Shown here: positions 394-21,521 of the stretch, one piece after another
How the letters are laid out: the number at the start of each line of letters is the position of its first letter
How positions within the stretch are numbered: the first letter of the stretch is position 1
Source of the DNA: Nitrospiraceae bacterium
GTDB taxonomy: Bacteria; Nitrospirota; Nitrospiria; Nitrospirales; Nitrospiraceae
Direction: 5' to 3'
DNA: 42,136 nt
NCBI GenBank assembly: GCA_035623075.1
Contig: DASPUC010000051.1
Span: forward strand, 1 to 42,136
Translations under genes and position numbers: made by a program
The notes under the pieces: generated by a model
What the model saw: only the letters and a program-made list of their open reading frames with translations
Databases searched by the model: none
What the model was told of the DNA's origin: nothing

Positions 394-1212
394 CTAACTC
401 GCAAGGCGGTCTGCTACATACTGTTCAGGGTCGATGACTTCTTGCTTGATAGAACCCACAGGAGGAATCGTCAGAAGGCGCAGTCTGCCCCCCACCGCTC
501 CGGCTTCAATGGCAAACTGCTCTCCATGATCGATCGTGAGGCGGACTGCAATCTTGTACAACGCCTTGGCCTCGTCGATCGAAAAGGATGAGTCGAGGCA
601 ATCATCATCCTTGTACAATTGATTGGCGAGACTGCCGGCCAGCACTTCCGGGCGGCGTTTCTCCTCTTTGAAATGAGCGCTTTTATCAAGAAGGACGTTC
701 GCGACGCCGTCTTCTCCGATGAACCGAGCCCCACAGCCATGGGCGCTTAACCGGCTCACGCGCTCCGTCGTCACATGCCAGTTGCCCCGGCCGTTTTTTC
801 TCCACCGGATTTCGCGCACTGTAACCAGTGGAGTTTCTCTCTCATAGCCGGCCACTGCTACATAGGCCACATGCTCATTCGAGGGAGGGGGAAGGTTCGC
901 CGCTTTCGGTGGCTGAATCCCAGTGTGTTCTCGATACGTCTGCTCGAGCTTTTTGGCTAACCTATCGGCTTGGGCCTCCAGGGACTGTAGTTTTGACGAT
1001 CGTGCGAGTTCCCGACATACCTCATGAAAGCGCTGGTACAGGTATAGATTCTCTCCATACCACCCTTGCAGTGTGCCAGCACTCCGTAAGCCGAGTTGGC
1101 ACGTCTTGTCGACTTGAGCAGGAGGCGGAACAGTGGAGCCCAACAGGACCGCATCGGCCCCGATGATAATGCCTGTCGAAGTAAGAAAGATCCCAATCAG
1201 TGATCCCAGCAT
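394..1212 (-). CDS. Proteasome-fold Ntn-hydrolase-like protein
   Basis: The 272-residue protein fits the 20S proteasome beta/HslV type of N-terminal nucleophile hydrolase. Relative to Ser4, preceded by Gly3 as in self-processing Gly/Thr sites, Asp20 and Lys36 fall exactly where Asp17 and Lys33 lie relative to Thr1 in proteasome beta subunits. Residues 14-20 read GIIIGAD, matching the conserved strand that ends in Asp17. A late segment (IDEAKALYKIAV, then GAVGGRLRLLTI) resembles the C-terminal helix and strand of the family. An in-frame TAA four codons upstream fixes the ATG start; no strong ribosome site is seen. Ser in place of Thr as nucleophile is unusual. The alternative is that the hydrophobic N-terminus is a signal peptide and the fit is chance. 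Substrate unknown; it stands alone, with no ATPase partner nearby. Confidence 0.6.
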   Translation of the reverse strand: MLGSLIGIFLTSTGIIIGADAVLLGSTVPPPAQVDKTCQLGLRSAGTLQGWYGENLYLYQRFHEVCRELARSSKLQSLEAQADRLAKKLEQTYREHTGIQPPKAANLPPPSNEHVAYVAVAGYERETPLVTVREIRWRKNGRGNWHVTTERVSRLSAHGCGARFIGEDGVANVLLDKSAHFKEEKRRPEVLAGSLANQLYKDDDCLDSSFSIDEAKALYKIAVRLTIDHGEQFAIEAGAVGGRLRLLTIPPVGSIKQEVIDPEQYVADRLAS

Positions 1213-17604: not shown

Positions 17605-20238
17605 TCACGCATGTCTGCTTTTCATTGGGCTAGACCTCTCAGAAAACTGCTGTCGCACCAAGGCCTCTATCGATTGAAAGTGTCGGTCCGGTAGGTTTTT
17701 GAATCGGCGTTTGCAATCGAGGAGGGCTTCATCGGCTGAAGCGAATGGTTCGATGACAGATAACAAGTGACCGTAATAATCCATAAGCTTGAGCTCGACG
17801 GTTCTCAGATAGCCGGGGTCTCCGGCAATTTCCAGTGCAGCTTTCGTCTGATCGCCGCCTGATTCGACCAGAGCTTGAAAGCAGAGGCCTTTCAGTCGTT
17901 GAGTGACCGTGCTGCGGTCCCAGCCTAACGTCTTCGCGGTCGCTTGCATGTCAAAGCCATGTTGCCTTAAGTGATTCAAGACGGCAGCATCGCTGGCCGG
18001 GTCCGGAAGAATCTGTGACGGTTTGGTCCTCCCGGTGGTAGACCCGCTGCCACCGCCGAGTCGCAACGATTCTTTAGTCAAGAGAGGGCTATCGCTGAGT
18101 GCAATGGCCTGCTCTAAACAATGCCGAAACTCTCGCACATTTCCTTTCCACCCGTGTTCGACTAACGCACGCAACGCCTCGTTCGAAAGCTTTGGGACCG
18201 GTTTCCCCAACTGAGTGGCAATTTCACTCAGAAAGGTGTCCGCGAGGATCGGCACGTCGGCCGGCCGTTCGCGCAACGGAGGCAGCCGGAACACCAAGCC
18301 AGTCAGACGGAAATACAGGTCCTCTCGGAACCAGCCTTCGGATACGCCGCGCTGAAGATCACGATTCGTCGCAGCGACGATGCGTACGTCGACGGTGGTG
18401 GGGATGGTTGCGCCGACACGATAAAATGACTTTTCCTGCAGCACGCGCAGCAGCTTGCTCTGATGGTCCAGCCGCAAATCCCCGATTTCATCCAAGAAGA
18501 TGGTTCCGTGGTTTGCCAGTTCGAAATACCCGCGCCGGTCCGCCGACGCACCGGTGAAACTGCCTTTCACATGGCCGAACAATTCGCTTTCAAAGAGTTC
18601 GGGCGAGATAGCGGCTATGTTCACTGCAATAAACGTCTTGCCGGTCCGTGGACTGAGCCGATGCACTGCACGGGCAAAGAGTTCTTTGCCGGTACCAGGC
18701 TCGCCGAGCAACAAGACGGTCAACGGTGATTTCGCGCCTCTTTTCAGGTCGCGGTAGAGGCATAGGAGCCCGGTATCCTGGGTCACGATGCCAAACTGCA
18801 GGCATTCCCCGCGAAGACGATCGAGTTCAACATCGGCCATGGCAACGGACTCATTCGTGGCTGCACGTAGACTATGCAGTTGCTGCTCAAGAGTTTCCAG
18901 CTGTGTACGCGCCTCTTCCTCCTGAGTTTGGGCGACTGCTAGTTCCCTCCGAAGCGCTTCCATGGTGCGTGACAGGTCTACGTGCTGACCGGCGGAGTGT
19001 GCAATCGCGGCCCGCGCCTGCTCCAGATCCTCTTCCAACGTTTCAGCACGGGTTTCCCGGAGGACCAGGGCCTCGCGCACAGCCGCGGCTTCTTGCTGCA
19101 GTCGCAACATGTCTCGTTCGAGGAGGCGCATCTGCTGACTTGCCGTGAGATGGCTCCAGACGGTCGTGCTGACGAGAACGATCAACGCCGCTATGAGCGG
19201 CAACGCAAATGGAAATACGAGGTCCGCGAAGGACAGCGCCAAGAGCAGGGCGCAGCCATACCCGAGGACAACAGCTCCGGCGAGGATGAGTCCGCGCGAT
19301 TCTCGAGAATACAGCAAGGTCCAAGAGACGAGACCGGCAAGAAGGAACGCTGCGATATAGCTGCCGACCGCACCAAGCTGGCAGACACGATTGCCAGTCA
19401 GGAGCATGTTCAACAGATGCAGATGGATTGTGATGCCGGTGACGGACTGGCCGCTTGGGAGAAGCCAGGTCGCGGGACTTGCCGGGTCAGAAAGCATCAC
19501 CACGACCTTGTCTTTGAACCATCCATTTAGTTGCTCTTCATGGTTTGCTTCGATCGCTTCCCACAGTGTGACGAATGAGAGGGTTGGGAGCGAGTTGATG
19601 GACCCGTCTCCAGCATAGTTCACAAGGATCGTCCCCTCGTTGTTCGTAGAACCGGGTTTCGTCTTGGCTTGTTCAAACAACACGCTCCCGAATGCAGGCA
19701 CCGTCCGTCCATCCAGTTCAAGAGAGAGGGGAATGGAGCGGGCCACATGATCCCGTTGTCGGGACGCCAGCAGATGCCCGAACATCGTCGTATCCGAGGC
19801 CACCGAGGGTTCTGAATCGAAGGGGTAGACAACCGGCCCGGCCGCTTTAGTAGCTTCCAACAACAGAGCATCGCTGGCTGCACCGCCAAGTTGAGCTGGG
19901 CTGGCGTGACTCAACCGATGATCGAGGCCAATCGCAATCGCCCCTGCGTCATGGATTTCGGTGAGGACGCGAGCCAGGATTGCTCGATCCCATTGGCCGG
20001 CTCCGAACTTGGCGTCGCTCGCTTGATCGCGGATCACAAGGAGCAGAGACGGGCTGACTTCAACAGGACCCCGGTGCCGGAGCCAGGCGTCGTAGGCAGC
20101 CCAATTCAATGCCGTGAAGGTCGTAGGGGCGAGGACCATCAGAATCGCCGCAAGAGACGTGGCCAGCACCCCTATGGCGCAAGCCTGAAGCCAGCGCGAT
20201 TCGAGAAAGGCACGCCAGATTCTTGCGTAATTCAGCAT
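17605..20238 (-). CDS. CHASE2 / sigma-54 AAA+ / HTH membrane activator
   Basis: The 877-residue protein combines sensor and transcription activator. An N-terminal helix (~17-40) precedes an extracytoplasmic CHASE2 domain (~45-310). Three closely spaced membrane helices (~315-400) and a long coiled coil (~405-480) follow. The AAA+ sigma-54 interaction domain has Walker A GEPGTGKE (~512), GSFTGA (~557) and Walker B IFLDEIGDL (~580). The C-terminus carries Fis-like HTH segments ('ATAKTLGWDRSTVTQRL'). CHASE2 is usually joined to cyclases or kinases, so direct fusion to a sigma-54 activator gives a one-protein signalling route. GAFTGA has Ser for Ala, a tolerated but uncommon change. The start (MLNYAR) lies 12 bases after the TPR gene stop; the longer frame runs through that gene. 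Confidence 0.88.
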   Translation of the reverse strand: MLNYARIWRAFLESRWLQACAIGVLATSLAAILMVLAPTTFTALNWAAYDAWLRHRGPVEVSPSLLLVIRDQASDAKFGAGQWDRAILARVLTEIHDAGAIAIGLDHRLSHASPAQLGGAASDALLLEATKAAGPVVYPFDSEPSVASDTTMFGHLLASRQRDHVARSIPLSLELDGRTVPAFGSVLFEQAKTKPGSTNNEGTILVNYAGDGSINSLPTLSFVTLWEAIEANHEEQLNGWFKDKVVVMLSDPASPATWLLPSGQSVTGITIHLHLLNMLLTGNRVCQLGAVGSYIAAFLLAGLVSWTLLYSRESRGLILAGAVVLGYGCALLLALSFADLVFPFALPLIAALIVLVSTTVWSHLTASQQMRLLERDMLRLQQEAAAVREALVLRETRAETLEEDLEQARAAIAHSAGQHVDLSRTMEALRRELAVAQTQEEEARTQLETLEQQLHSLRAATNESVAMADVELDRLRGECLQFGIVTQDTGLLCLYRDLKRGAKSPLTVLLLGEPGTGKELFARAVHRLSPRTGKTFIAVNIAAISPELFESELFGHVKGSFTGASADRRGYFELANHGTIFLDEIGDLRLDHQSKLLRVLQEKSFYRVGATIPTTVDVRIVAATNRDLQRGVSEGWFREDLYFRLTGLVFRLPPLRERPADVPILADTFLSEIATQLGKPVPKLSNEALRALVEHGWKGNVREFRHCLEQAIALSDSPLLTKESLRLGGGSGSTTGRTKPSQILPDPASDAAVLNHLRQHGFDMQATAKTLGWDRSTVTQRLKGLCFQALVESGGDQTKAALEIAGDPGYLRTVELKLMDYYGHLLSVIEPFASADEALLDCKRRFKNLPDRHFQSIEALVRQQFSERSSPMKSRHA

Positions 20239-20249
20239 GTTCGAACACT

Positions 20250-21521
20250 CTACGGCTGAGACGGAAGGTCGGAGAGAATTGATGTGATCTCTTGCTTCGG
20301 CAATCCCTTGAGTTGGGCTTTCGCCTTCGGGAGGTCCGGAATCGTGCCGATCCCCTTGGCGTAAATGGACGCCAGGATCTTCTTGGCTGGGACGAATCCG
20401 TCGTTGGCCGTGATTTCGAAGGAGGTCAGAATCCTCTTGTCGAAAGGAGCCAGATGCGGTTCCCATCCCATTTCGTACAATCGAGCGAGCTCAATCTGTG
20501 CTGCCTCGCTCAGAGCGTAGCTTTCTTGTAGCAGCACCGATACGGTCTGGTCGCTACGATTCTGTTTGAGGAGCGTTGTTCCCAATGTCTCGGCTTCGCC
20601 GTCGCGCGAGAGGTCGGGGAAATTGTCCCAGAGCTTGTCTCGATAATTTCGAAAGGCCTCCAAGGCCTCCTGGCGTTTCGCCTCCGGCTGTGTCGAAGAC
20701 AAGGCTTGGCGGCGAAGTTGCGAGAGCGATGTCGCGGCCGGTTGATGACCGAGCGCAAGGGCTTTTGTCCACCAGTAGACCGCAAGGGCGGTGTTCTTCT
20801 CCACTCCTTGGCCTGTACGATAGGCATTGCCGATAAAGTATTGGGCCTGTGCAACGCCGCCTCGTGCCGCCTCCTCCATAGATTGTGCCGACTCCTGATC
20901 TCGATGGCTCAGCTTCAGGACGAGAGCCAGACGATAGCGAGCGTCGGGGAAATGATTCTGAAGCTCCAACGCTCGTTGATAGGCTTGTATCGCGCCTTTG
21001 AGATTGCCTGTCGTGTAATAAACAGTGCCGAGATTGTAGTGTGCCTGTGTCAGATCAGGGTCGAGACGAATCGCTTCCTTGAGTTCCACCATCGCTGTGC
21101 GCCAATCTTGCTTGGTCATCAAGGCTACACCGAGCTGCATATGCGCCCTGGCAGATTCGGGCTTTAGTTTAAGGGCGATGCGGTATTCATCAATCGCCTG
21201 GTCCACGTCACCGACTCGGTAGAGTGTATCGGCCAATTCAAGATGATCTTGCAGCGAGTTCGGAAAGGTCTGAACCGCATCCCTCAGGTCGACAAGCGAG
21301 GTGGGCAGATCAGCGGCCTCCTCCTCCCGGTCGTTCCCACGATCTGAATTGGATTTGTCCGCCGGGGTATCACGGGGTTCGAGAGCGTTGTTCGAGAATG
21401 AGGAAGTTGAAGCCCCGTTCTCTAAAGGGAGTGTTTCCTCTCCGTGGGAAGGAATCGAAGAGACAAGCATCGTGCCTGCCACGAAGAGAGTGAAGATCAC
21501 AGGGGTGCGACCATATGTCAT
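20250..21521 (-). CDS. Secreted TPR/Sel1-repeat protein
   Basis: The 423-residue protein begins with a signal peptide (~1-27) and a charged, Ser/Asp-rich linker (~30-75). TPR units follow (~80-205: 'LADTLYRVGDVDQAIDEYRI', 'LGVALMTKQDWRTAMVELKE', 'LGTVYYTTGNLKGAIQAYQR'). Next come Sel1-type repeats (~215-260, 'AQYFIGNAYRTGQGVEKN') and a helical C-terminus that again has a Sel1-like unit. This is a scaffold for periplasmic protein contacts. It is first in a likely operon with the CHASE2 activator, so it may present a ligand or partner to that sensor domain. AGGAA precedes the ATG by about six bases. An upstream in-frame start lacks a site. Confidence 0.85.
   Translation of the reverse strand: MTYGRTPVIFTLFVAGTMLVSSIPSHGEETLPLENGASTSSFSNNALEPRDTPADKSNSDRGNDREEEAADLPTSLVDLRDAVQTFPNSLQDHLELADTLYRVGDVDQAIDEYRIALKLKPESARAHMQLGVALMTKQDWRTAMVELKEAIRLDPDLTQAHYNLGTVYYTTGNLKGAIQAYQRALELQNHFPDARYRLALVLKLSHRDQESAQSMEEAARGGVAQAQYFIGNAYRTGQGVEKNTALAVYWWTKALALGHQPAATSLSQLRRQALSSTQPEAKRQEALEAFRNYRDKLWDNFPDLSRDGEAETLGTTLLKQNRSDQTVSVLLQESYALSEAAQIELARLYEMGWEPHLAPFDKRILTSFEITANDGFVPAKKILASIYAKGIGTIPDLPKAKAQLKGLPKQEITSILSDLPSQP

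Follow-up and report, generated by a model that had tools for sequence, protein, structure and literature searches.

We analysed a 42,136-nucleotide stretch of Nitrospiraceae DNA (the window), which is contig C51 of a 3.39 Mb genome in 58 contigs. Near its beginning lies the gene for a proteasome-like protein, whose features are given in Table 1. The first-pass annotation had placed an open reading frame here, and we found this frame on the minus strand. A plus-strand reading of the same interval was rejected because the frame is not open there. An in-frame stop lies five codons upstream of the ATG, with no ATG, GTG or TTG in between. With any other common start excluded by this stop, the protein, if the gene is read, truly begins with Met1-Leu2-Gly3-Ser4; its N-terminal sequence is MLGSLIGIFLTSTGIIIGAD.

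Table 1. Features of the proteasome-like gene by window position; conservation refers to the eight intact copies of the family
Feature	Position	Strand	Basis
Proteasome-like protein CDS, 272 aa	394..1212 (coding 1212->397, stop codon 394-396)	minus	ORF, homologues, purifying selection among relatives
Met1-Leu2-Gly3, putative three-residue pro-segment ending in Gly(-1)	1204..1212	minus	Gly3 invariant 8/8; removal predicted
Ser4 codon (TCA), putative N-terminal nucleophile, corresponding to Thr1	1201..1203	minus	Thr 6/8, Ser 2/8
Asp20, corresponding to proteasome Asp17	1153..1155	minus	invariant 8/8; gapless alignment to Asp17
Lys36, corresponding to Lys33	1105..1107	minus	invariant 8/8
Gly50, corresponding to Gly47 (oxyanion hole), within invariant GWYGE motif	1063..1065	minus	invariant 8/8; register from profile alignment
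Glu167, proposed at the place of proteasome Ser129 / Anbu Glu	712..714	minus	Glu 4, Asp 4 of 8; tentative, alignment by eye
Asp228, candidate for Asp166	529..531	minus	invariant 8/8; putative assignment

Distribution and surroundings of the gene

Homologues were found in 10 of the 175 Nitrospiraceae genomes searched, with that of the window counted, as eight intact copies, one damaged copy and one remnant. An earlier search with a single sequence had given matches in 9 of 147 genomes of the same family. When 395 genomes were sampled across the phylum, the same 10 matched and none outside Nitrospiraceae. The damaged copy (L003) contains two N and one TAG, and the remnant (G041) consists of 44 residues, GTLTGIVMTSADVVISADS, followed by a stop soon after. 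The existence of these two degraded copies suggests that the gene is dispensable. Purifying selection acts among the relatives: dN/dS was 0.11-0.18 in the ten pairs among the five closest relatives and 0.11-0.31 across all 21 pairs giving an estimate, while the seven pairs involving the window copy gave none, their silent sites being saturated.

A wider contig collection gave no match with the window protein as sole query, and an alignment-based search of the same collection returned six loci, all in MAGs named as Nitrospira. We found no relative in viral contigs, in plasmids searched with the window protein or in phages searched with the Thr-type L025. Viral contigs were also scanned with HslV and Anbu alignments with the aim of a deeper fold alignment, and nothing was found. 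No report on this subfamily was found in the open literature, a coverage outside which most subscription journals lie.

In the window, a LuxR-type gene with a DUF4118 domain precedes the gene, and the contig end follows it. Positions 211-257 are a 47-base element that matches (97.9%) a tRNA-Thr gene of contig C3 in the same genome at its 3' end, and further copies lie near C3:153.8 kb and C11:0.8 kb. This element looks like an integration-site remnant beside the gene at the contig end. In five of the six relatives from the wider contig search, the gene sits between PhoB-like and CBS genes and, on the opposite side, an MGS-domain gene; the sixth, L021, has none of these neighbours. The five (L020, L022-L025) have a phosphate-related neighbourhood with PhoB-like and PstS-like genes, and a polyphosphate kinase occurs in three of the six. 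A PhoU-like ORF, named by eye, adjoins the G041 remnant. The window gene is located elsewhere than in these relatives, since on contig C40 of this genome some 240 bases separate the CBS and MGS genes, and the gene is not there. A link to phosphate genes was therefore kept as a lead only, as we saw no evident operon and the gene of the window sits at another place.

Among ten neighbouring ORFs scanned in the relatives there was no proteolytic AAA+ ATPase, and the sole AAA+ match among 20 window ORFs scanned was a sigma-54 activator. No conserved partner occurs among the neighbouring genes scanned. It had been claimed that the protein has no alpha-type or ATPase partner. This is true of the locus, but the genome encodes PrcB and PrcA with a proteasomal-ATPase domain on contig C23 and Anbu on contig C15; Anbu and a Dop-like gene were named by eye. 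Elsewhere in the window, positions 17605-20466 encode a fusion of CHASE2 and sigma-54 activator AAA+ domains.

Active-site layout and relation to the proteasome family

The first-pass annotation had proposed that Ser4-Asp20-Lys36 reproduces the Thr1-Asp17-Lys33 spacing of proteasome beta subunits, with a Gly directly before the nucleophile. All four residues are in place in the window protein, and the pattern holds in the homologues: position 4 holds Ser or Thr in every case, and in all eight intact copies the triad and the oxyanion Gly47 equivalent occur at the conserved spacing of the proteasome-like family as understood by Fuchs 2021. The triad spacing alone, in the single window protein, is weak evidence; among 50,000 shuffles of this protein it appeared anywhere in 6.0% and within the first 10 residues in 0.28%. 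The active-site pattern across the family is strong evidence. When the columns of the 8-sequence alignment were shuffled 200,000 times, the full pattern G-[ST]-x15-D-x15-K-x13-G came up 3 times and its three-residue version 498 times. Four cysteines (residues 38, 66, 160 and 205) are also invariant in the intact copies and may serve disulfides, metal binding or neither; such a set is not known from proteasome subunits and speaks against the proteasome-like reading. Likewise invariant is Ile6, two residues past the nucleophile, where active proteasomes have Thr or Ile according to the available text of PMC4792962.

The Pfam Proteasome profile (PF00227) matched six of the eight members, always with residue 11 on profile position 12. 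The E-values lay between 0.0014 (for L009, which has Ser) and 0.18, and with 18.8 bits even the best match stays under the Pfam gathering cut-off (22.4 bits). For the window protein and L002 there was no Pfam match, NCBIfam and PHROGs gave nothing credible, and neither phmmer nor hmmsearch with the family alignment found a family member among PDB sequences.

We then compared the family by hhalign with a mixed profile of PrcB, second PrcB, HslV, PrcA and Anbu sequences. The score was 32.7, in an alignment that is gapless from before D17 past G47. It was 33.9 after adding further Anbu and Anbu-like sequences, with the printed PrcB row shifted by one residue near position 47. The null scores reached 24.5 at most in 150 shuffles, 24.8 in 400 column shuffles, 16.0 with reversed rows and 21.0 with 20 clusters of neighbouring frames that are unrelated and in part antisense. 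Known members aligned to the rest of such a profile scored 31.0 (Anbu), 28.0 (PrcA) and 51.0 (HslV), and an Anbu-like group 17.6, a miss; the family's score is thus much like those of Anbu and PrcA. The family's score depended on the make-up of the profile: without Anbu relatives it was 23.1 and with PrcB types alone 19.0, both in the noise. Single-family profiles (PrcB, second PrcB, HslV, PrcA, Anbu) were too shallow; the best of them, PrcB at 22.2, gave the right register at a score inside the shuffle range obtained against the larger profile. There was no match specific to HslV, and the direct comparison of the family with an Anbu profile failed. Homology was detected over residues 12-126 only, and only with the diverse profile. 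Homology to proteasomes is therefore likely, but it depends on a diverse profile and on the N-terminal half.

The C-terminal part had also been said to resemble proteasome subunits, a claim that is weakly supported. The Pfam and profile matches end at about residues 102-126; past this point, the only resemblance lies in how low-confidence models order the helices and strands and in FIGED..LLD, a short segment like that of Anbu. Two AlphaFold runs with six sequences gave models of very low confidence (pLDDT 47.2 for model 1 and 43.7 for model 2). They place strands, two helices at 55-97, three strands at 114-156, a helix at 167-176, an extra helix near 188-201, a helix from 212 and then further strands. 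This order, which would be that of the proteasome family plus a segment inserted after helix 3 and before helix 4, is suggestive only. In VIA-align searches with model 1 (pLDDT 47), proteasome subunits took 47 of the 50 rows shown (Z 6.2-7.0), with alignments mostly of 79-91 residues and an N-terminal register that differs from the sequence-based one. The other three rows shown were urate oxidase at similar scores. All these scores are middling, and proteasome chains are numerous in the PDB. Model 2 (pLDDT 44) gave no proteasome row among those listed, and Foldseek on model 1 gave nothing significant.

As a whole, the residues in register, the sub-threshold PF00227 matches, the profile comparison and the Thr/Ser exchange make the predicted identity as a proteasome-like Ntn hydrolase well supported at the level of sequence, and the protein is a probable distant member of this group with a putative alpha-beta-beta-alpha Ntn fold. 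Two corrections apply to the first proposal: serine is no hallmark of the family, and the genome does contain a full proteasome system, at an unlinked place.

The N-terminus and the putative Ser/Thr nucleophile

Ser4 is present in the window protein, but serine does not mark the family. Only the window copy and L009 have Ser at residue 4, and the other six intact copies have Thr. Both degraded copies also point to Thr, as a codon read by eye in L003 and at the nucleophile position of the G041 remnant. Among ten columns with only Ser or Thr, the two interchange at residues 4 and 44 only. The tree prefers two Ser/Thr changes, and no more than 4% of bootstrap trees have a single one; its well-supported branches force just one. 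The best reading is that Ser replaces Thr naturally in some members of a family that mostly has Thr. Such a nucleophile is chemically workable, because the yeast beta5 T1S mutant is processed and retains activity, at a level 40-45% lower (PMC4792962, available text).

Residue 2 is Phe in six intact copies and Leu in two. Methionine aminopeptidase would not act before Phe or Leu at this position and would so leave Thr/Ser unexposed. Exposure of the nucleophile would therefore call for self-cleavage after Gly3. In all eight intact copies Leu2 goes with Ser4 (L001, L009) and Phe2 with Thr4 (L002, L004-L008). This pairing is a hint only, because the remnant (L019, G041) reads Leu-Gly-Thr.

These observations are consistent with the following scheme. 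The precursor would be made with three extra residues, Met-Phe/Leu-Gly. By analogy with the proteasome mechanism in the available text of PMC4792962, Lys36, oriented by Asp20, would deprotonate the hydroxyl of Thr4/Ser4, which would attack the carbonyl of Gly3 and generate a new N-terminal Thr or Ser. The freed residue would then serve as nucleophile of the putative mature enzyme, which would hydrolyse amide or peptide bonds and have Gly50 in its oxyanion hole.

Place among proteasome homologues

With the 20S beta subunit (PrcB; PF00227) the family has in common the T/S1-D17-K33-G47 spacing, Gly(-1) and Ile at position 3, and the similarity extends up to helix 2. In contrast to PrcB, whose gene goes with those for an alpha subunit and a proteasomal ATPase, the window gene has no linked PrcA or ATPase gene, that system lying on another contig. 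Its pro-segment would be three residues against a long one in PrcB. The Ser of the window copy, the four cysteines, scores below the Pfam cut-off and, in the low-confidence models, the extra segment between helices 3 and 4 also set it apart. Like Anbu, it is a solitary beta-like protein without a known ATPase, and in both an acidic residue follows Gly at the place of proteasome Ser129 when aligned by eye (IGES in Anbu, FIGED here). However, Anbu sequences read ..IGES..YGKP..LDR and have a Met-Thr start, whereas the start here is Met-Phe/Leu-Gly-Thr/Ser; Anbu's alpha-E-type neighbour (named by eye) is absent beside the window gene. Anbu lacks a propeptide, and Met removal exposes Thr1 (PMC5666114, available text). 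HslV has the same nucleophile-Asp-Lys spacing, and no hslU-like neighbour was seen here. PMI/WPH, the other homologues described in 2021 and connectase are likewise rare, uncharacterised and without an ATPase partner.

We considered whether the protein could instead be exported or membrane-anchored, its N-terminus being a signal peptide or anchor and the proteasome spacing a coincidence. The first 30 residues are hydrophobic (best 19-residue Kyte-Doolittle mean 1.67-2.04), and the four invariant cysteines could form disulfides. Unlike in a usual signal peptide, Lys and Arg are absent before residue 33-36 in all eight copies, and conservation is highest over residues 1-20, of which 13 are invariant and which include Asp20 and the Gly. 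The lack of positive charge and this conservation argue against a signal peptide, and the PF00227 register and the pattern odds oppose coincidence, making such an exported protein very improbable. Only slightly less improbable is a regulatory or scaffolding subunit with the proteasome-like fold and without catalysis, perhaps joining the genome's proteasome or Anbu. Proteasome alpha subunits, which retain the fold though they lack the triad, are a precedent; Anbu and PrcBA coexist in the window genome, and Ser129 seems replaced by an acidic residue in the alignment by eye. Against lost catalysis, the triad and the oxyanion Gly do not vary, in contrast to the residues that flank them, and the exchange at the nucleophile is limited to Ser and Thr.

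A stronger competitor, which we regard as possible though doubtful, is that the family belongs to one of the 22 subfamilies of proteasome homologues described in 2021, such as the PMI type, here sampled from Nitrospira. Several of these list 'other bacteria', and PMI-2 to PMI-6 carry an insertion between helices 3 and 4 (PMC8665760, available text), where our low-confidence models would place the extra helix at about 188-201 between two helices. The same text states pro-segments for proteasome beta and HslV and for no other homologue, whereas Met-Phe/Leu-Gly is invariant here, a difference from PMI/WPH and the others that was drawn from descriptions only. In addition, Nitrospira goes unnamed in the available main text, and the clusters kept there had at least 10 representatives (PMC8665760), compared with eight intact copies here. 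An undescribed Nitrospira subfamily is the most likely assignment.

Our preferred reading, which we consider probable, is that the product of the gene is distantly related to proteasome beta subunits, stands alone and occurs, in our searches, in only some Nitrospira. It is most likely made as a precursor with three extra residues, which it would remove itself, and is predicted to hydrolyse amide or peptide bonds. The data show directly the conserved residues and their register, the Ser/Thr exchange, purifying selection among relatives and the lack of a conserved partner among the neighbours scanned, from which we go on to propose the Ntn fold, self-cleavage, catalytic activity and independence from an ATPase as inferences. 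A more specific version can be put forward tentatively, namely a new subfamily in which a minimal Met-Phe/Leu-Gly would be self-cleaved by a single polypeptide without ring or ATPase, and in which Thr and Ser would have switched together with residue 2. If true, nature would have run an experiment on why threonine is retained in proteasomes. Proteasomes use Thr1 strictly, although the T1S mutant functions, if less well (PMC4792962, available text), and a natural family with Ser1 and Thr1 in comparable proteins and a very short pro-segment would allow a direct test of this preference.

The protein would also be a third kind of proteasome-like protein in a genome already holding a PrcBA proteasome and Anbu. 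Neither a second PrcB-like subunit nor HslV is among the three PF00227 matches of this genome. Many Nitrospiraceae encode, away from prcBA, a second beta subunit that is PrcB-like and about 255 aa long, and many have an HslV with a short Met-Arg/Ile-Ile-Arg-Ser start (both among L061, L062, L064 and L066-L068).
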